Of a DNA stretch of 64,000 nucleotides, positions 3,729 through 49,688 are shown in pieces. This DNA comes from Acetobacterium woodii DSM 1030 (GTDB lineage Bacteria; Bacillota; Clostridia; Eubacteriales; Eubacteriaceae). The stretch's first letter is position 1. Every line of letters begins with the position of its first letter. The stretch covers positions 2,097,732 to 2,161,731 of the forward strand of contig NC_016894.1 of NCBI RefSeq assembly GCF_000247605.1. The letters are read 5' to 3'. A program made the position numbers and the translations under genes. The notes beneath the pieces are model-generated. The model worked only from the letters and a program-made list of their open reading frames with translations, was not told the DNA's origin and did not search any database.

Positions 3729-4136
3729 GTGAATTCTAAAAAAAATGATACTGACTTAAAAGAAATTAAAGTCTGTTGTACCACCTGTCCCAAGGAATGT
3801 GTCGTGACAATTTTAGTTCAAGATGATACTTTAGTTAAAATAACGGGTGAAGGTTGCAAAAGAGGGAAAAAATTTGCTCAAAAGGAGCTGACCGATCCGG
3901 AAAGAACTTTAACCAGCACTGTTGTGGTGAGAAACGGCGAAACAACGTATCTTTTGCCAGTAAAAACAGCGGCGCCTATTGCTAAAAAAGATCTCGCCGC
4001 GGTGATGACCCTGATTCGCAAAACAACGCTTACCCAACCCTGTGACCGGGGCGATGTTGTTATCCCCAATATCTGTAATAGCGGCGTCGATGTAATTGCT
4101 TGTCGAAGTATCAAGGGGGACTGGCATGCGTGTTAA
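3729..4136 (+). CDS. DUF1667 domain protein, Cys-rich
   Basis: A 135-aa protein matching the DUF1667 family that accompanies GlpA/GlpB-like flavoproteins. The N-terminal part has CCTTCPKEC and a later GEGCKRG, a four-to-five-Cys pattern suited to a metal or Fe-S site. A C-terminal part (about 60-125) contains GDVVIPNICNSGVDVIACR. Translation starts at GTG 3729 directly after the preceding TAA, with AAGGAGG eight bases upstream. Its last 11 bases overlap the aldolase start. Probably a small electron-transfer or assembly subunit of the flavoprotein complex; the function is not experimentally defined as far as I know. Confidence 0.8.
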   Translation: MNSKKNDTDLKEIKVCCTTCPKECVVTILVQDDTLVKITGEGCKRGKKFAQKELTDPERTLTSTVVVRNGETTYLLPVKTAAPIAKKDLAAVMTLIRKTTLTQPCDRGDVVIPNICNSGVDVIACRSIKGDWHAC

Positions 4137-5164: not shown

Positions 5165-5287
5165 TGGGAATATTATCCCCGCACTGGCGTATAGTTGGAA
5201 ACCTTGATGCGATTCTTTCGGGAAAAGCAAAGGTAACTAGGACGCGTATTGAACTGTTTCAATCGTGTCAGGCTGGAGGAAGTGTTA
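5165..5287 (+). promoter_or_regulatory. Structured 5' leader, possible riboswitch or cis-regulatory RNA
   Basis: The leader can fold into a long interrupted hairpin: GCGT 5187-5190 with ACGC 5242-5245, AGTT 5193-5196 with AACT 5235-5238, CCTT 5202-5205 with AAGG 5230-5233, TGC 5208-5210 with GCA 5227-5229, and TTC 5213-5215 with GAA 5222-5224. A second hairpin follows (ATTGAA 5248-5253 with TTCAAT 5258-5263). The RBS GGAGGA is just downstream. Purine-rich internal loops (GGAAA, GA/AA, AGG) are the sort of positions that ligand-binding RNAs conserve. I could not match it to a known riboswitch class. Confidence 0.35.
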
Positions 5288-5503
5288 ATGTATAACGCTC
5301 AAGTTATCAATGGTAAAAAAGATGAGAACAAAATCACGGAGATTAAACTTTGTTGTCGCACTTGTCCCCAAAAATGTGAAATGACGCTACTTGTAGAAGG
5401 TTATTCAATCATTTATGTACAGGGTGATGGATGTAAAAAAGGAAGAATGTCTGTTTATAAAGAGTTTAAAAAAAGAAAATTAAATAATTCGTATGGGTTT
5501 TGA
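5288..5503 (+). CDS. Short stand-alone DUF1667-like Cys protein
   Basis: A 71-aa protein whose core ITEIKLCCRTCPQKC and later GDGCKKG closely parallels the N-terminal Cys region of the DUF1667 protein at 3729-4136. It lacks the C-terminal half of that family. ATG 5288 is preceded by GGAGGA at 5275-5280. It stands alone between the aldolase operon and a ferritin-like gene, behind its own promoter-like element and folded leader. It could be an independent metal-binding protein or a truncated duplicate. Function unknown. Confidence 0.6.
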   Translation: MYNAQVINGKKDENKITEIKLCCRTCPQKCEMTLLVEGYSIIYVQGDGCKKGRMSVYKEFKKRKLNNSYGF

Positions 5504-7923: not shown

Positions 7924-8025
7924 ATGAGCCTTACCATGGACAAGCTATTTTTATGGTGCCATGAAAATGGGGGTGTCAGTTTCCTGTTTTTTCTGTTGCT
8001 TCTGACATTGTTTATGATAAGGTGA
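7924..8025 (+). CDS. Small possible membrane peptide, 33 aa
   Basis: ATG 7924 follows GGAGG (7912-7916) by seven bases, an excellent ribosome binding site for this genome. The peptide MSLTMDKLFLWCHENGGVSF then runs into a hydrophobic FFLLLLTLFMI tail and stops at 8023-8025. It lies 17 nt after the glycosyltransferase and overlaps the 3' end of the convergent exonuclease. It may be a real small membrane protein or the 5' end of a gene cut off when the exonuclease was placed here. Confidence 0.35.
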   Translation: MSLTMDKLFLWCHENGGVSFLFFLLLLTLFMIR

Positions 8026-8646
8026 ATGGTTGTTCTTAAACTCCGATACGAGGATTAGGTTATCCAGATCTTCTACACAGTTAATAATACCAGCGTGTGT
8101 TTTTAATGACTGGTAGAGATTATTGACGGCAAGACAATCTGAAAGGGCGCGGTGAGCATGGGTATTTTGCAGAGCACATTTTTCACACAGCGTCGTAATT
8201 CGGTAATTTTCCGCCGCTTGTTGCTGTTCTCTGAATAAGGCTTTAATATCAATATAATCATTTTTAAAATATTGATGGAGATGAATTTCACATTGATCAT
8301 ACAGGAAATTAACATCCGTATTAATATTGTGGCCAATTAAAACGTGATCCCCAACAAATGACAAAAACGAATCTAACACCATAGTGATCGGATTAGTTTT
8401 AGCCAACATATCATTGCTAATCCCGGTTAGATTGGAAATATAGTTACTAATTGGATTGCGTGGTTGAGCCAGCGATTGAAAAATTGAAGAAATTTTGTTA
8501 TTAGTGACTTTTACCGCCCCAATTTCAATAATTTCATCGCTTTTAGAATTAAAACCGGTTGTTTCAATATCAATAATTACATAATCGCTCGGAAACGTCA
8601 GCAGGCTTTGACCTTTATATTGACGTGAAATAAATTGTGTATTCAT
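7951..8646 (-). CDS. DnaQ-like DEDDh 3'-5' exonuclease
   Basis: A 231-aa exonuclease of the PolC/DnaQ epsilon type. ExoI is DIETTG with Asp26 and Glu28, ExoII is HNINTDVNF with Asp111, and ExoIII is HRALSD with His165 and Asp170, so all four acidic residues and the general-base His are present. The start is supported by AAGGAGAATAAGTC directly upstream on the minus strand. It has no polymerase domain and probably acts as a free-standing single-strand exonuclease in repair. The last 30 residues are basic and Gln-rich. It is convergent with the glycosyltransferase operon and shows no operon partner. Confidence 0.85.
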   Translation of the reverse strand: MNTQFISRQYKGQSLLTFPSDYVIIDIETTGFNSKSDEIIEIGAVKVTNNKISSIFQSLAQPRNPISNYISNLTGISNDMLAKTNPITMVLDSFLSFVGDHVLIGHNINTDVNFLYDQCEIHLHQYFKNDYIDIKALFREQQQAAENYRITTLCEKCALQNTHAHRALSDCLAVNNLYQSLKTHAGIINCVEDLDNLILVSEFKNNHSPYHKQCQKQQKKQETDTPIFMAP

Positions 8647-9032
8647 GACTTATTCTCCTTAATTAACGGGTATTTTTTATGATTTAAATGATCTTTAACT
8701 TTGTTATCTTTATAACCAATAAATTTTATATTATTCACATGGTTGCGCAATTGTTTATTATATCTTTTGAAAATCACTATTTTTTAGTCATTAATCATCA
8801 ACCATATAAATAAATCAAAACGGACGTCATTCCTGTTTGTTCAGCGGATGACGTTTTTTTAACTGGAATTAATTGCTGATAAACGTTTATAAAATAAAAA
8901 ATAACGGCGGTTGCAAAAAAAAGTCCTGACAAGAATCAGATTCTTCCTTTAACTGTCAGTTGATGTTACAATAATATTAATGATTCGTAAAATAAGAACG
9001 ATTGAATAAAAGTGAAGATGGAGAACTATTCA
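8647..9032. other. AT-rich divergent intergenic region with orphan terminator
   Basis: A 386-bp gap between the divergent exonuclease and hsdR-like genes. It must contain both promoters, but no clear -35/-10 pair stands out. The one clear element is a plus-strand terminator at 8824-8860 that is not downstream of any plus-strand gene. Confidence 0.5.
8824..8860 (+). terminator. Orphan rho-independent terminator
   Basis: ACGTCAT 8824-8830 pairs with ATGACGT 8848-8854 and a run of T follows. No annotated plus-strand gene ends before it within 900 bp except the glycosyltransferase or 33-aa frame, so it may end an unannotated small RNA or a readthrough transcript. Confidence 0.6.
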
Positions 9033-12000
9033 ATGAAATCAAATTTCGAATTTTTGAATGAAAAATTTCCAGAATTAACCCTTTTGGGAAGTCTGGCTGA
9101 AGATTATCTTTATAGTGATGTTAATTCCTGTTTAATCAAGTTGGGACTATTTGGGGAAACCATCGTCAATCTAATGTTGGAGATGGATGGACTTACTCCG
9201 CCGAAATATGACAATACCCATGCTAATCGCCTACGCTTATTAAAAAGAGAAGGGTTAATTCAACCGGCCGTAGATGACCTTTTTTTTGCCTTGCGTAAAG
9301 CAAGAAACAAAGCAGTCCATGAGGGTTATGCAAATTTTAATGATGCCCTGATTCTCTTAAAACTGACCTATGGATTGGGGGTCTGGTTTATGCAGACCTA
9401 TGGCAATTGGACTGAGCAACCAGCTATTTTTGAGGTGCCCATGAATCATTCTAATAGTTTGGAGCACGAGGGCTCCCGAAATAAAAAAGAACAAGAATTA
9501 GTAACCCTTCGGAACGAGGCAACGCCAGTGGCTACTGATCATGTGCTCAATTATGCCGAACGCTTACAACAGTCGGCACTAGCTGCCAAGCAGTTGGACT
9601 TATGTGAAAAAGAGACTCGTTTTATGGTCGATGGCCAACTTCAAAAAGTTGGCTGGGAAGCAGATTCGCTGACATTAAATTACGCCAATGGTACACGGCC
9701 ACAAAAAGGCCGAAATCTGGCTATTGCTAAATGGCCGACAAATAAAAACGAAACAGCTCGGGGAATGGTAGATTATGCGCTTTTTGTCGGGCTTTTTTTT
9801 GTTGCTATTGTCGAGGTCCAGTGTAATATTCAAGACGCAGCCAGTCTCATTGAAAGTCTATGTGAATATTCAGCGGAAAATATCAGCGATATTCCCCGAG
9901 AATCCCGGATTAATCGTTGGGATCGATATAAAGCACCGTTATTGTTTGCGACTAATGGCATCCAAATTCGCGGTGCCACTGAAACACAAGCCGGAATTTG
10001 GTTTAAAGATATCAGAAATCCGTTCAATCCTAAAAAAGCGTTACAAGGTTGGATGAGTCCGATTAGTATCCTCGAGTTACTGGCCAACGATATCGTGACC
10101 GCCAATGCCGAACTGGAAGAGTTGGTTTATGACTTTTTACGGGAAAAAGACGGACTTAATCTTAGAAATTACCAGGTTTCGGCCATCCAGGCAGCTGAAA
10201 AAGCCATCATTTATGGCCAAAAAAGAGTCCTGTTATCAATGGCAACAGGAACTGGAAAAACGCGGACGTTATTGGGTCTGATCTACCGTTTTCTTAAAAC
10301 GGGCCGATTTCGTCGGATTCTCTTTCTGGTAGACAGTTCCAGTTTAGGTGAACAAACCAAAAACATTTTTAAAGAAATGCGTTTGGAAGATCTGATGACT
10401 TTAGATGAAATTTATAGTATCAAAACCCTTGACGGTGACGATCACGATTTGGCAACTAAAATTCATATTGGTTCAGTTCAAGAGCTTGTAAAACGTATTA
10501 TCTATAATGAAGAAGTTGTTAAACCCTCGGTGACTGACTACGATTTGATTGTGATTGATGAAGCGCATCGCGGATTTGTTTTAAATACTAAAATGGAAGA
10601 TAATGAACAGCTTTATAAAAACCGCCGTGACTATATCCGAAAATATGCTCAGATTCTTGATTATTTTCATGCTACAATTGTCGCGATGACAGCTACACCG
10701 GCGCAGCACACCAGTGCGCTTTTTGGTCGACCGGTCTTTCACTATTCGTATAGCGAGGCGGTAATTGATGGTTTTTTGGTCGATCACAATCCGCCTCAGG
10801 AAATGGATACCACCTTAGCTTGGCAAGCACTGATCGATGCTCAACTCATTGTCCCGGTGCGCCCCGAAAATGTCACTAATTGGGATGAACTGACGGATGA
10901 ACTGGGATTTGAAGTCGAAAGCATCAATCGCCATATTACACCTCAAAGTTTTACGGTCAAGGTGATTAATGAAATCGCCCTCTATCTTGAACCCCAGGGA
11001 AATGGGAAAACATTAATCTTTGCCGTTGACGAATACCATGCCGATAATATTGTTGCCAACCTCAGAAAAATCTATGAACCATTGGGTTTTGACCCCGACG
11101 TCGTGATGAAACTTAGTCGTGATGTTTCGGCCAAAAACCGAAATCTAAGCAGCAAAACGATTAAGCAATTTCAAAATGAAAAATTCCCCAGAATTGCAGT
11201 GACAGCTGATTATCATGCAAATGAGATCAATGTTCCGGAAATCACTAAACTGGTATTTATGAGCTGGATTGATTCTCGCATTTTGTTTGAGCAGATGCTC
11301 GGCAAAGCAACTAGACGGTGCCCGGCGATTGGAAAAACACATTTTGATATTTATGATCCGGTAGGATTTTATCAGGCTTTTAAAGCATTTATTAACATCG
11401 GACCTGTTATCAACAATGCTATTTCTGATTTTAGCGGACAACTCAATCAACTCGATAAACTTGAATCCGAGGATGATGTTAAAATTACGATAGAGCAAAT
11501 AATCGTGATGCTTCATCGCCAAAAAAGCAATTTCGATGAGCAGACCCTCAGGCATTTTAGTGATTTAACAGCGGGCCTCAGTCCCGATCAATTTATTGAA
11601 AATATTCAGGAGATGACGATAAAAGAGGCTCAAAATTATCTCCTCGGTCAGCAAAAACTGTTTGCATTGCTTGATCATGACGGTTTACAACTTTTCAAAA
11701 AAGAGGATAGCAAAAATATCGTGGCAAAACGCTATCTGGAGGAGTTTAAACACTATTTAATCAATCATGATAATCAAAATGAAATCATCGATTGTATTTG
11801 CAAACGCCCCGAACAATTGACTCGCACGGATTTAAAACGGTTAACTCTGGAATTGGAACGAAATGACTTTACCGAGGATCGTTTAAATCATGCCTGGCAG
11901 GATGTGACTGGTGAAAGGCGTCGATTAGATCTAATTGGATTGATTCGTCAGCAGATTTTAGGTTTAGATGAATTGAGTCACATTAAGCGGATCAAAAAAG

Positions 12001-12248
12001 CCGTAAATAATTTAAAGAAAAATCATGATTTTAATCAAGAACAGCTTAAATGGATCAACCGGATCGAAAACAATATCTTATTCGAGACGGTTTTGGACCG
12101 AGACATCTTTACCGTGGGAGCCTTTAAAAAAGCTGGTGGATTTTTTAAAATCGATCAACTTTTTAAAAATAATCTTGATCAACTGCTTAATGAGTTAAAA
12201 AATGATCTTTATTTTAAGGGGGGAACAGATGATCATGAAAACGAGTGA
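9033..12248 (+). CDS. Type I restriction HsdR-like protein with altered nuclease and helicase motifs
   Basis: A 1071-aa protein in the usual HsdR order. An N-terminal DUF4145-like region (about 15-110) is followed by an HSDR_N nuclease-like domain (about 190-340), two SF2 helicase lobes (about 375-790) and a C-terminal region. Walker A MATGTGKT is at 403-410, DEAH at 509-512, and the TATP motif is present. In the nuclease the usual D...ExK becomes Asp247...Glu261-Val-Gln263, losing the catalytic lysine. Motif V, normally like TTGIDVP, reads HANEINVP at 728-735. Motif VI reads QMLGKATR (754-761) instead of QMLGRATR. ATG 9033 is preferred because GATGGAG precedes it; a GTG at 9012 lacks an RBS. 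The stop lies 20 nt inside the hsdM-like gene. Confidence 0.82.
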   Translation: MKSNFEFLNEKFPELTLLGSLAEDYLYSDVNSCLIKLGLFGETIVNLMLEMDGLTPPKYDNTHANRLRLLKREGLIQPAVDDLFFALRKARNKAVHEGYANFNDALILLKLTYGLGVWFMQTYGNWTEQPAIFEVPMNHSNSLEHEGSRNKKEQELVTLRNEATPVATDHVLNYAERLQQSALAAKQLDLCEKETRFMVDGQLQKVGWEADSLTLNYANGTRPQKGRNLAIAKWPTNKNETARGMVDYALFVGLFFVAIVEVQCNIQDAASLIESLCEYSAENISDIPRESRINRWDRYKAPLLFATNGIQIRGATETQAGIWFKDIRNPFNPKKALQGWMSPISILELLANDIVTANAELEELVYDFLREKDGLNLRNYQVSAIQAAEKAIIYGQKRVLLSMATGTGKTRTLLGLIYRFLKTGRFRRILFLVDSSSLGEQTKNIFKEMRLEDLMTLDEIYSIKTLDGDDHDLATKIHIGSVQELVKRIIYNEEVVKPSVTDYDLIVIDEAHRGFVLNTKMEDNEQLYKNRRDYIRKYAQILDYFHATIVAMTATPAQHTSALFGRPVFHYSYSEAVIDGFLVDHNPPQEMDTTLAWQALIDAQLIVPVRPENVTNWDELTDELGFEVESINRHITPQSFTVKVINEIALYLEPQGNGKTLIFAVDEYHADNIVANLRKIYEPLGFDPDVVMKLSRDVSAKNRNLSSKTIKQFQNEKFPRIAVTADYHANEINVPEITKLVFMSWIDSRILFEQMLGKATRRCPAIGKTHFDIYDPVGFYQAFKAFINIGPVINNAISDFSGQLNQLDKLESEDDVKITIEQIIVMLHRQKSNFDEQTLRHFSDLTAGLSPDQFIENIQEMTIKEAQNYLLGQQKLFALLDHDGLQLFKKEDSKNIVAKRYLEEFKHYLINHDNQNEIIDCICKRPEQLTRTDLKRLTLELERNDFTEDRLNHAWQDVTGERRRLDLIGLIRQQILGLDELSHIKRIKKAVNNLKKNHDFNQEQLKWINRIENNILFETVLDRDIFTVGAFKKAGGFFKIDQLFKNNLDQLLNELKNDLYFKGGTDDHENE

Positions 12249-13515
12249 ATTATTACTAAAATTTAGTGATTCCTGCCAAATGCTGGGAGCTAGTAAAATC
12301 ACCACCCATCGGTTTGCTACCGAGTTAACGTACTTATTGTTTCTTAAGATGATCGATGAAAAAGAGCTTGAAGCTTGCCTTCCTGAAAAGTACAGCTGGG
12401 CCTCATTAGTAAAAAAACAAGGAATTGAGCTGAAACGTTTTTACAACGAATTGCTCACCAATCTCAGTGAAAATTACAATAGCGTAACGCGTCAAATTTA
12501 CGTCGGCTCGCACTCATCCATTGCAGAACCAAAAAACCTGGAAAAAATGATCCGCTGTATTGATGCGTTGGATTGGTATGAGGCTAAAACCGAAGGGTTG
12601 GCAATTACTTTTGAAAAACTCCTTGATAAAGTTGTCGCTGAAAACAAAAACGCTGCTGATTTTTTCTTTACACCCAAGCGTTTAATTGATCTAATGGTGA
12701 TTTTATTGGCCCCACAACCAGGTGAACGTTGCAACGATCCCGTTTGTGGAACCTTTGATTTTATGATTGCTGCCGATCAGTTTGTAAAAGCCCAAACCGA
12801 CAATAATTTTATGTTACCCCTTGAAGCTCAGGAGTTCCAGATTTGTCAAGCCTTTACTGGTTGCGAAGCGATTCATGAAAGCCAACGTCTGGGGTTGATG
12901 AATGCCTTTCTCCACGACTTGGAAGGCGAGATTACGCTTGGTGATGTGATGTCAAGCCAGGGTCAAAAACTTAAAAATTATGATTTGATTTTAACTAACC
13001 TGGTCTTTGAAACAAAACATGAAATGGAGCTGACTACTCGAAAAGATCTTACCTACCCAACAAAAGAACGGGCATTAAATATTCTTCAGCATATTTATCG
13101 GAGTTTAAAAGCTGATGGCAACGCCCGTGCCGGCGTAATTCTTACGGATGCTGTTTTAGCCAATGAAACCGAGGGCATCGCAATCCGACATGACCTTATG
13201 AATAAATGTGATCTCCAGCAGGTGCTTTTTCTTCCAGCTGGTCTTTTCGGGGCAAATGATCAGGGCAGTAGTGTTTTATTTTTCACACGAGGCCAAACTG
13301 AGAAAAACAACACCAAAGAAGTATGGTTTTATGATTTACATACTGGTATTAACCCATGTGAGAAGGCTTTTGAATCCAAACATTTTAACGCTGTAAAAAA
13401 AGCTTTTACGGCTAAAAACCGCCATAAAATAAAAGATATTCGATTTTTTTGTCGATCTCGAGATGTGCTCAGGAATAATTACGAGCGACTGGACTATCAT
13501 TCAATCAATCGTTAA
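12229..13515 (+). CDS. HsdM-like N6-adenine methylase homologue with degenerate catalytic motifs
   Basis: A 428-aa protein, slightly short for HsdM. The N-terminal helical HsdM_N domain (about 5-130) and the region around DWYEAKTEGLAITFEKLL and FFFTPKRLIDLMV are family-like. SAM-binding motif I, normally DPACGTGGFL, reads DPVCGTFDFM at 170-179. Catalytic motif IV, normally NPPF, reads NLVF at 257-260. Methylation activity is therefore unlikely. ATG 12229 follows a GGGGGG Shine-Dalgarno-like run and overlaps the hsdR-like gene by 20 nt. No hsdS follows; the next gene is a signalling protein. It could be a structural partner of the HsdR-like ATPase. Confidence 0.8.
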   Translation: MIMKTSELLLKFSDSCQMLGASKITTHRFATELTYLLFLKMIDEKELEACLPEKYSWASLVKKQGIELKRFYNELLTNLSENYNSVTRQIYVGSHSSIAEPKNLEKMIRCIDALDWYEAKTEGLAITFEKLLDKVVAENKNAADFFFTPKRLIDLMVILLAPQPGERCNDPVCGTFDFMIAADQFVKAQTDNNFMLPLEAQEFQICQAFTGCEAIHESQRLGLMNAFLHDLEGEITLGDVMSSQGQKLKNYDLILTNLVFETKHEMELTTRKDLTYPTKERALNILQHIYRSLKADGNARAGVILTDAVLANETEGIAIRHDLMNKCDLQQVLFLPAGLFGANDQGSSVLFFTRGQTEKNNTKEVWFYDLHTGINPCEKAFESKHFNAVKKAFTAKNRHKIKDIRFFCRSRDVLRNNYERLDYHSINR

Positions 13516-13566
13516 ACAAAATTCCAATTTGTCGGGCTAAAAATGCGAAAATTGACTTGCCGTGGG

Positions 13567-13572
13567 TATAAT
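13567..13572 (+). promoter_or_regulatory. Possible -10 element (TATAAT)
   Basis: A perfect TATAAT lies 143 nt upstream of the PAS-EAL-PilZ gene, preceded by TG two bases away. A TTGACT at 13552-13557 is too close (9 bp) to serve as its -35. Likely but unproven promoter. Confidence 0.3.
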
Positions 13573-13714
13573 GATTGATAATGGGATTCTAATCTAAGAT
13601 CCTTCAAGTAGGTGATGTTACCTTTTTGTCGCAATTAACGCCAAACTTGTAAAAATCGGTTAAAGTTTGAAAAAATTGTTAAAATTTAAATATTTTTGAA
13701 AAGAGGTATCTATT

Positions 13715-46587: not shown

Positions 46588-46904
46588 GTGTGATAGCTCC
46601 TCCTTTAAAGCATTAAGTGATAATGCTATATGAATATAAGTATAACCACTTGAATAAAGCCTGTAAAGTTACAATTAGGATAATATTTTCAGTTGTTAAG
46701 TTCGCGGTATTTTTAAGCTTCGAGCCAACCAGTTATAATAATGTTGCGAATATAGTTACAAGGCTGTATCCAACCCTTCATTCTAGTCAGTTATAAGGAT
46801 GTAAACGTTGACTTTATAATAAAAAAAGGGTAATATAAATCCATATTGACAATAAGTTGCTGTTTTTTAAAGCTCGGTTTCCCAAGTATATTAAGGAGAA
46901 GCAA
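46588..46904. other. 317-bp divergent intergenic region
   Basis: Separates the unknown minus-strand gene from the histidine kinase. It holds the kinase promoter (46808-46836); no other element was recognised. Confidence 0.5.
46808..46836 (+). promoter_or_regulatory. Sigma-A type promoter for the two-component pair
   Basis: TTGACT 46808-46813, 17-bp spacer, TAATAT 46831-46836. Transcription would start near 46843, 62 nt before the kinase ATG. Confidence 0.6.
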
Positions 46905-49688
46905 ATGAATATTGTTCATCCCCATAAAGAAGATATTTATATCGAATCCTCAATGTTAAATAAGTGGCAGAAATTTCTCGACCTTTTTTCAGAAATGATT
47001 GATATCCCAATCGTGTTGATTATGCAACTCAATCAAATTGACCTCGAAGTTATTGTACAGAGCATACAAGAATCCGACATTTATCGAAAAAATGATCTCC
47101 TTTCGCTGAAAGAAAGTAGTTATTCTAAAGCCGTTATCGACACCGGGAATAACCTGATTATACCAAACGCCAATCTCGATAAAAAATGGCGCGACAGCCG
47201 CGCGTTAGCCCTTGGTCTGGTTGCGTATATAGGATTTCCAATTTTCTGGCCATCGGGAGAAATATTTGGTACAATCTGCGCTTTAGATTTGCACGAGCGA
47301 GAATTTACGAGTTGGAGCGGCCAGTTGTTAGGTCAATATGCCGAGATTATACAAGATGATCTGTCCAAAATTGACGCTCTAGATGATTTGAAAAAGGCGC
47401 AGGCAGAACAAGCAAAAAGCGAGCAACTCCTGCATGAGTCGGAAGAGCGCTTTAAAACAGCATTTCAGACCTCACCAGCCGGAATCTTGCTGACATCGCT
47501 GACCGATGGTGTAATCATTGATGCAAACGAAACGTACCAGCGCTTGTTCGGATATTCACATGAAGAACTGGTTGGGAAGACCACAGCGGAGATTAATATC
47601 TACGTAAATGCCGAAGATCGAGGCCATGTGTTTGAGAAGTTGCAAAAAGGTGAACCTGTCCAAAATTATGAAATGCCGCTGCGAACAAAAAACGACGAAA
47701 TCAAAATAGTTCATGGCACAGTCAAGCGAATCAATATAAACGGGCGCGATTGCTTGATCACCTCGGTTTACGATATGACTGCCATTAAAAAGCTTGAAAA
47801 TGATCTCCTGAGACTGAATGAGCGTTATGCTCTGGCAATTCGCGCCGCGCAGGCTGGTATCTGGGATTGGGATATCGTCAACGATGTCTTACATTGGGAT
47901 GATCAAATGTACAAAATATATGATGCGACAAAAGAACAATTTGGTGGCGCCTACGATGCATGGCTTGCGCGTGTGCATCCCGATGATTTGGCGCAAAGCG
48001 ACTTGGAAACAAAACAGGCAATGCTTGGCGAAAAGGAATACAATACCGAATTTAGAATCTGCGCTACCGACGGAAGCATTCGTTTTATTAAAGCCTATGG
48101 CGATGTCATTCGAGATTTCACGGGGAATCCCGTACGTATGGTGGGCATTAACTTTGATATTACGGAAAGAAATCGAATCAAGGAAAGACTCATGGCCAGC
48201 GAGACACGGTATCGCGAAATCTTCTATAATAACGCGGCTGCTCAGATTGTAATCGATTCGCATGATTCATCGATCGTTGATGCAAACCGGGCTGCTTGTA
48301 GATATTACGGTTATTCCCTTGATGAAATCAAGAAAAAAACCGTATTTGATATCAATCCCAATAGCAAAGAATATATCCTTGAAACGATGAAAAACTCACT
48401 CAAAAAAGGGTCGAATCATTTTGTAACCCAACATATTCGGGCGGATCATTCGATTCGCGATGTCGAGTTATTTAACGGAAATGTTAGCTTTGATGGGCGC
48501 AATTTATTACATGTCATCATTTATGATATTACTGAAAATATCAAGGCGATTAGCGACCTCCAAGAAAGTGAACGCAGATTCCGACTATTTGTGGAAAACG
48601 CTCCCGATGGCATTCTTGTTGAAACAAACTATCAAATTGATTATGTCAATCAAAAAACGCTTGAACTCTTCCGGGCGGATAAACTAAACGATTTGGTGGG
48701 CAAAAACTTTGCGGATTATTTTGTTGAAAACAGTAGCAGCATTAACGCGTATATTCAAAAATTGAATGCCGGTCTGTTACTAAAAACCTTAAGTGAAGAA
48801 ACGATTATCAGGCTGGACGGAGAACAGGTTGATATAGAGCTATCGGCGGTGCCTTTTTTTTACAATGGAAAAGACGGCGCTTTAATCTATCTGAGGGATA
48901 TGACCGAACGGCGAGACTTTGAAAAAGTGAAACTTGATATGGAATTCCAGCTTCGGCAAAAGCAAAAGCTCGAATCGATTGGGACACTGGCTGGCGGTGT
49001 TGCACATGAAATCAACAATCCCATCAACGGAATCATTAACTACGCAGAGTTGATTTCAGATCCGACCACACCACCAGCACAGATTCATGATTACAGTCAG
49101 GAAATCATGCGGGAAGGGAAACGAATCGCAGAAATCGTAAGAAACCTGCTCAGCTTTGCCCGCCAGGAAAAGCAAACCCACAGCCCGGCTCAGATCAGTG
49201 ATATCATTAATCAAACCGTCTCACTCGTGCGGGTTTTACTTCGTCACGATCAAATCACGCTGCTCCTTGATATTCCCGATGACCTTCCCAGTATTAAGTG
49301 CCGCAGCCAGCAGATTCAACAAGTATTAATGAATTTAATCACTAATGCCAGAGATGCCCTCAATTCAAAATATCCTGGTTATCATGAAAAAAAAGTTATC
49401 GAAATCAATTGTTTGATGTTTGAACGGGATGGTCGCCGATGGTTTAAAATAACGGTGAAGGATAACGGAACCGGGATTCTGGAAGAACTTTTAGAGCGGA
49501 TATTTGATCCCTTTTTCACTACCAAACCCCGCGACAAAGGGACCGGCCTGGGTCTTTCCATCAGCCACGGAATTGTTAAGGATCACCATGGGGAGCTTTA
49601 TTTTGAGACGAAACAAGGAGAATGTACCAAAGCAATCCTTATTCTCCCAGTTGATAACGGATGGTCGATGGATGATGATGTCATGTAA
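46905..49688 (+). CDS. GAF-PAS hybrid sensor histidine kinase
   Basis: A 927-aa cytoplasmic histidine kinase with no membrane segment. A GAF-like domain (about 15-160) is followed by four PAS/PAC units (about 180-680). HisKA carries His701 in [16 protein letters not shown] and HATPase_c (about 800-920) has TNARDAL (N box), DNGTGI (G1) and GTGLGLSI (G2). AAGGAG precedes ATG 46905. The stop is 12 nt from the response-regulator start, so the pair is an operon. Its signal is unknown; the GAF and PAS domains suggest small-molecule or redox input in the cytoplasm. Confidence 0.86.

Follow-up and report, generated by a model that had tools for sequence, protein, structure and literature searches.

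Two adjoining genes of the gas-consuming bacterium Acetobacterium woodii DSM 1030 resemble the HsdR and HsdM subunits of a type I restriction-modification (R-M) system, and the catalytic motifs of both are changed. They raise the question of whether such a pair is a relic on its way to loss or is retained for some other function, and which part of it would then do the work. We examined them within a stretch of 64,000 nucleotides (hereafter the window; contig NC_016894.1, positions 2,097,732 to 2,161,731), on which an earlier note, made from the sequence alone, had proposed that both enzymatic activities of an R-M system were disabled in one locus and that a shared non-modifying function was possible.

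The open reading frame, frame and coordinates that had been assigned to the HsdM-like gene proved correct (Table 1). Its ATG at 12229 is preceded by a Shine-Dalgarno-like AAGGGGGGAAC, its stop lies at 13515, and its start overlaps the 3' end of the hsdR-like gene (12248); the order hsdR-hsdM is that found in the relatives read. Both proteins are homologous to EcoKI-like type I subunits by sequence and fold. The HsdR-like protein scored 1017.7 bits against the PRK11448 equivalog (NCBIfam NF008521; cut-off 729), and the HsdM-like protein scored 140.9 bits against Pfam N6_Mtase (cut-off 20.4) and 387 bits against a PADLOC type I methylase model. EcoKI HsdM was both the best solved relative of the HsdM-like family profile and the top fold match of the predicted HsdM-like structure (mean pLDDT 83.6; TM 0.82).

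A search of the organism's own genome yielded four top-scoring HsdM-type genes, at 0.52, 1.02, 2.02 and 2.11 Mb, with three weaker matches elsewhere. Jensen and colleagues list HsdM1-HsdM4 of A. woodii as Awo_c04420, c08800, c17140 and c17840 and describe a mutation splitting hsdS1 at 522,352 (PMC6700114); our HsdS search returned two pieces, 521,957-522,313 and 522,424-522,957, that flank this mutation. From genome order, the lack of an HsdS and the hsdS1 context, we infer that the window gene is Awo_c17840 (HsdM4). No notable flanking repeats that would mark mobile-element edges were found around the locus, and a promoter scan gave an excess of weak matches (25 vs 13.8) that we attribute to AT-richness and did not use. 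Divergent from the hsdR-like gene, on the minus strand (7951-8646), is a DEDDh exonuclease resembling the PolC proofreading domain, and PADLOC lists a similar CRISPR-associated model. Two similar short cysteine-rich reading frames on the plus strand (3729-4136 and 5249-5503; CCxTCPxxC...GxGCKxG), the second of them shorter, look like a duplicated, partly truncated gene.

Table 1. Features of the hsdR-hsdM locus, in window coordinates; changes are given as family form to window form
Feature	Position	Strand	Basis or remark
HsdR-like gene, EcoKI/PRK11448 family	9012..12248	+	family-type start ~9033; NCBIfam NF008521, Pfam EcoEI_R_C and ResIII
HEPN/DUF4145-type domain, ordinary divergence rate	9030..9434	+	AlphaFold pLDDT 88.9; HEPN structures are top matches; ratio 1.06
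HEPN Rx4H motif RNKAVH, intact	9303..9320	+	alignment
PD-(D/E)XK nuclease motif, EAK to EVQ (lysine lost)	9804..9827	+	EAK in 13/13 other rows
Walker A ATGTGKTRT, intact	10242..10268	+	alignment with 13 homologues
Walker B DEAH, intact	10551..10574	+	alignment with 13 homologues
TATPA, intact	10686-10703	+	alignment with 13 homologues
Helicase motif V, TTGIDVP to ANEINVP	11217..11243	+	alignment with 13 homologues
Helicase motif VI, GRATRLCP to GKATRRCP	11301..11324	+	alignment with 13 homologues
HsdM-like gene, match to Awo_c17840 (HsdM4)	12229..13515	+	changed catalytic motifs, C-terminal tail missing
Motif X region, SGAGQYFTP to NAADFFFTP	12649..12675	+	alignment with homologues
Motif I, DPACGTFGFM to DPVCGTFDFM	12736..12765	+	alignment with homologues and EcoKI
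Motif IV, NPPFGTKKGGE to NLVFETKHEME	12997..13029	+	alignment with homologues
Region after hsdM	13516..13714	.	no HsdM tail, no HsdS at the usual hsdS start

Motifs X, I and IV are all kept in 48/48 other distinct HsdM homologues scoring above 140 bits (identical proteins counted once; L062 and L063, copies of the window gene, removed from 50 rows). The replacement of NPPF by NLVF in motif IV, which the earlier note had pointed out, is real and is shared by none of the 48. For motif I the note had described a change from GTGGFL to GTFDFM; a change is indeed present (second glycine to aspartate, DPAC to DPVC), but the assumed starting form was not that of the close family, which reads GTFGFM (GTYGFM in L012, GTFGFI in L043), GTGGFL/F and similar forms being confined to the more distant rows of the survey. 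The first glycine, aligned with EcoKI G177, is kept, and the changed second glycine aligns with EcoKI G180; a search of a limited literature collection found no published HsdM motif I point mutants. Beyond these motifs, the note had missed the motif X change, the wider change at motif IV, the loss of the C-terminal tail and the lack of an HsdS near the locus. Compared with 23 homologues (aligned after removal of L004 and L008, the window's own gene), the HsdM-like protein ends ~45-50 residues early, and none of the six frames of the region that follows it gave a tail-like reading. Intact SAM-binding and catalytic motifs appear to be missing from this HsdM.

Changes are distributed across the protein. 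On invariant columns counted in the 23 other rows, 58/157 positions are replaced in the window HsdM; because the same test replaced 0-23 of 154-180 positions in those rows, and at most 23/180, this exceeds ordinary divergence. In a protein tree (13-row set) the window HsdM grouped with genus and clostridial copies (support 98/99); its branch measures 1.94, where the median for end branches is 0.12, and the program warns that rows this long are placed with uncertainty.

In the HsdR-like protein, EAK, TGIDVP and GRATRL, present in 13/13 other HsdR rows, are all changed, in agreement with the note's claim of altered HsdR activity: these changes affect the nuclease lysine as well as helicase motifs V and VI, and the protein seems to have neither the PD-(D/E)XK nuclease nor a complete SF2 motor. 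With invariant columns counted on 13 rows, 53/247 positions are replaced, which is within the family range (72/318 in the distant row L053). The total thus looks unexceptional, and it is the changes at catalytic sites that appear exceptional. Replacement is uneven across five parts of the protein (chi-square p = 0.002), with 10/107 invariant positions replaced in the N-terminal part and RecA1 together vs 43/140 elsewhere (p = 4e-5 for this grouping, which was made post hoc).

The type I set of HsdR, HsdM and HsdS is incomplete at this locus. No Methylase_S gene was found near it, and a genome search with PF01420 gave seven matches, all at three other loci; in relatives, the next open reading frame of at least 100 aa after hsdM was a Methylase_S in 8/10 checked. 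At the third type I locus of the genome (2.013-2.021 Mb), the main hsdS (2,018,428-2,019,522) is accompanied by an extra partial HsdS-like match at 2,013,064 (open frame 196 aa), which may be a spare specificity gene. When Jensen and colleagues cloned Awo_c17840 by itself, no motif was detected at a coverage of 8535; they noted no evident specificity gene in its vicinity and suggested that inactivity was due to the lack of HsdS (PMC6700114). Their methylome comprises five motifs, four linked to genes earlier and a fifth whose gene was found in that study, none of them assigned to Awo_c17840. Since the assay contained no HsdS, its negative outcome could not by itself reveal motif loss, and lost motifs and a HEPN domain go unmentioned in their account of this gene (PMC6700114). 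The apparent loss of catalytic motifs in the Awo_c17840 match, beyond the published lack of HsdS, is what is new here. The proposal that modification is disabled is supported by the changes in motifs X, I and IV, which match the published clone without methylation in its HsdS-free assay (PMC6700114).

To check its reading, the note had suggested a search for HsdM homologues with the NLVF/GTFDFM signature, and it named sporadic mutation of the motifs in this strain as grounds for refutation. None of the 48 homologues read shares the signature, so that by the note's own clause the changes are sporadic. The overlapping sets searched comprised 198 relatives and the genomes of the order (67), class (391) and phylum (398). 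A peptide-pattern scan of one genome per species (84,980 species) gave 41 stretches, with 17 relatives, under the requirement of an exact 8-residue match, which a distant sharer could escape. Viral contigs yielded no relative, and the matching plasmid and phage records (724 and 50) were all below 60% identity. With no sharer among the sequences read, we rejected a conserved subfamily of dead HsdM proteins; the altered, open hsdRM pair is known from one species only.

Both reading frames are open, with no stops in ~1500 codons despite the replacement of 111/404 family-invariant residues, some of which may be ordinary divergence. Selection-free mutation simulated to the same extent introduced a mean of ~9 stops into HsdM and ~13 into HsdR, and with two starting sequences per gene and 300 runs from each, every run acquired at least one (kappa 3, AT factor 1.5; only stops were counted, and frameshifts would tighten the result). 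Neutral drift of 80-100 substitutions (80 corresponding to 0.017 per site) would leave no stop with a probability of 0.048 to 0.025 and account for ~15-18 of the 111 replacements. Because even so short a drift is unlikely to be stop-free and would bring only a small share of the replacements, most of them probably arose while the frames were maintained, and simple neutral decay is disfavoured by these sequence comparisons. The open frames lend indirect support to the note's suggestion of a shared non-modifying function; the "DNA-bound" part of that suggestion is unsupported, since no HsdS lies nearby and the HsdM tail is gone.

Codon models rejected a wholly neutral window branch (2dlnL 80.1 for HsdM, 108.2 for HsdR), and over each whole gene omega on that branch did not differ from the background (2dlnL 0.26 and 0.13). 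Because dS is saturated (10.6 for HsdM, 4.8 for HsdR), these tests are weak. Fitted by domain, neutrality was rejected for the nuclease, RecA1, RecA2 (11.1) and C-terminal parts; the HEPN segment fitted alone (133 codons) gave no rejection (2dlnL 3.2). Beyond ruling out a branch that is neutral throughout, the codon tests say little. As to expression, a search of the A. woodii translatome paper (main text; PMC8407422) for the locus tag found no mention.

The part in best condition, absent from the earlier note, is a HEPN-type domain at the N-terminus of the HsdR-like protein. The predicted structure of this region has the HEPN helical fold: HEPN proteins head the list in structure comparison, with 2hsb at Z 11.8 (rmsd 2.5, 115 aligned), a score that helical bundles may reach through their common arrangement. 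Foldseek E-values were weak (best 0.21), DUF4145 scored 20.5 bits, below its cut-off of 23.1, and the N-terminal family profile matched solved HepN toxins at E 0.18 and above only. In the Rx4H alignment the arginine is present in 9/10 rows and the histidine in 10/10, and with the motif intact we regard the domain as a predicted RNase. The PADLOC candidate defence model PDC-M16A matches HsdR residues 8-189 (window 9033-9578; E 5.9e-22), an indication that a similar N-terminal domain is present in another candidate defence protein.

To compare rates of divergence, we divided the distance of each window segment to five outside copies by the same distance for three ordinary genus copies. This ratio was 1.06 (0.92-1.21) for HsdR residues 1-135, the HEPN domain, and 1.13 for the linker, as compared with 1.73 for the nuclease, 3.01 for RecA2, 1.61 for the C-terminal part and 2.7 to 3.2 across HsdM; RecA1 is spared at invariant positions, yet its ratio is 1.74. 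Invariant positions replaced in HEPN alone vs the rest of HsdR number 2/23 vs 51/224 (p = 0.18). At fourfold third positions, identity to the three genus copies was 15/32, 17/33 and 15/33 in HEPN (0.45-0.52) and 53/175, 51/180 and 48/180 in the rest (0.27-0.30), with p values of 0.10, 0.014 and 0.038 for copies that are not independent; the five outside copies showed no such difference between HEPN and the rest. This pattern is consistent with the 5' segment having been exchanged in the past, and the ordinary look of HEPN may be derived from recombination.

Within the genus, decay by deletion is a common fate of the hsdRM family, and the open, altered pair of the window is the exception. Among 18 sister genomes searched, full HsdR and HsdM are present in three (G009, G013 and G016), and G005 has an open hsdM with an interrupted hsdR. 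Fragments of the family occur in G003, G004, G011, G012 and G017, with a second one in G016, and weak matches in G002 and G015. For most fragments an ordinary copy (L040) is a closer match than the window copy; for the short N-terminal pieces of G003, G004 and G011 the window copy is slightly closer. Rx4H carries a stop in G012, is broken in G004 and is kept in G011 and G017. In G003 (contig 96, ~46639-46975; L117/L127) a deletion relic joins 43 HsdR N-terminal residues to 74 mid-HsdM residues, its HsdM piece having 76% identity to L040 and 45% to the window copy. The PAS-GGDEF-EAL gene downstream of the window pair has similar genes in sister species; in the ten sister stretches read, three of them ended by contig ends, neither hsdRM nor the five tested upstream window genes stood upstream of the PAS-GGDEF-EAL-like gene.

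Our best reading, to which we give a probability of only about 0.36, is that a disarmed R-M pair has been kept as a chassis for a HEPN RNase. We take this as the likeliest single function because the proposed RNase and the ATP-binding lobe are still there and the DNA enzymes have been lost. On this view a type I R-M system of the EcoKI kind would have lost HsdS, DNA methylation, DNA cleavage and probably translocation, and what remains, the HsdR-HsdM pair, would have been retained as proteins instead of drifting as a neutral relic. The N-terminal HEPN-type domain of HsdR would most likely be the part at work, held inactive by the ATP-binding lobe and the HsdM-like partner until infection or stress perturbs the complex, in the manner of PrrI-PrrC. 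That the pair is expressed, forms an HsdR-HsdM complex, has RNase activity and gates it is what we infer; gating of HEPN by the Hsd proteins, with release on infection, would follow from analogy alone. The more specific proposal that the system has been converted to a methylation-independent HEPN RNase switch, in which dead HsdR and HsdM serve as sensor and latch and HEPN is the only working nuclease, is doubtful.

Nearly as likely as the HEPN chassis is a dying relic, in which HsdS and the HsdM tail were lost and catalytic residues changed under weak constraint, stops having not yet arisen or having been purged until recently. Decay of this kind is frequent in the genus, with fragments left in five sister genomes and hsdR interrupted in a sixth; the spread of changes across HsdM and the confinement of the altered signature to one species also suit a relic. 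The shortfall of stops against the neutral expectation argues the other way, as do the coding-type base composition, the ribosome-binding site, the ordinary pace of HEPN divergence and the sparing of the N-terminal part and RecA1 at invariant positions. HsdR might also be a mosaic whose 5' HEPN part was swapped with an ordinary Acetobacterium copy, the rest and hsdM coming from an older diverged lineage; HEPN would then be ordinary through recency and not selection, under a relic or a retained pair alike. We hold this improbable. The third-position excess toward genus copies only and the low HEPN dS on the window branch (1.0 vs 2.7 to 67 in other fitted domains) speak for it, on few sites per comparison (32-33), with p from 0.014 to 0.10 and genus copies that are not independent; one control pair of ordinary copies differs likewise, though less (0.44 vs 0.34), and the open frames of the remainder would go unexplained.

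A structural or dominant-negative role, in which the altered HsdM or HsdR would join and tune other type I complexes of the genome, is less probable still. Three other type I loci are present and the overall HsdM fold is kept, but the window HsdM has 20-28% identity to the three other genomic matches and is missing the tail whose end adjoins HsdS in EcoKI (PMC3510504). A working type I system with an HsdS borrowed from another locus, for which the genome does hold other HsdS genes, we consider effectively ruled out by the changed motifs X, I and IV, the lost nuclease lysine and a published methylome whose five motifs are assigned to other genes (PMC6700114).

For HEPN domains fused to R-M helicase subunits, an RNase restrained by the R-M subunits and freed when restriction fails has been proposed (PMC3710099, PMC3506569), a coupling published as a hypothesis in 2012-2013 with PrrC as the worked case (PMC3506569, PMC3710099). 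The window pair shares with EcoKI-type (type IA, PRK11448) HsdR/HsdM homology over nearly the full length of both subunits, gene order and the predicted HsdM fold, and differs in having no HsdS nearby, no HsdM tail and changes in the methylation and cleavage residues and in helicase motifs V/VI. Like EcoprrI-PrrC, it ties a HEPN-type domain to type I Hsd proteins (PMC3506569, PMC3710099, PMC3874165); PrrC, however, is described as an ABC-HEPN protein in its own right that accompanies a functional R-M system, whereas the window HEPN lies inside HsdR and its R-M enzymes appear inactive. HEPN-helicase proteins that lack modification genes (PMC3710099) likewise combine HEPN with a helicase-type ATPase and no working DNA-modification enzyme, but those described there are giant SF-I helicase fusions, and the window would have an HsdR-HsdM pair that was converted and still includes a methylase-like subunit.

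The published negative result for Awo_c17840 gains a second reading, in that catalytic motifs are lost besides HsdS. Should the pair prove a relic, it would still illustrate, with unusual clarity, R-M decay in which the frames stay open. If the HEPN chassis reading is true, the locus would show the proposed suicide arm and the DNA-restriction arm of a type I system split apart in nature, and it would offer a direct route to test an HsdR-fused HEPN domain as an RNase effector.
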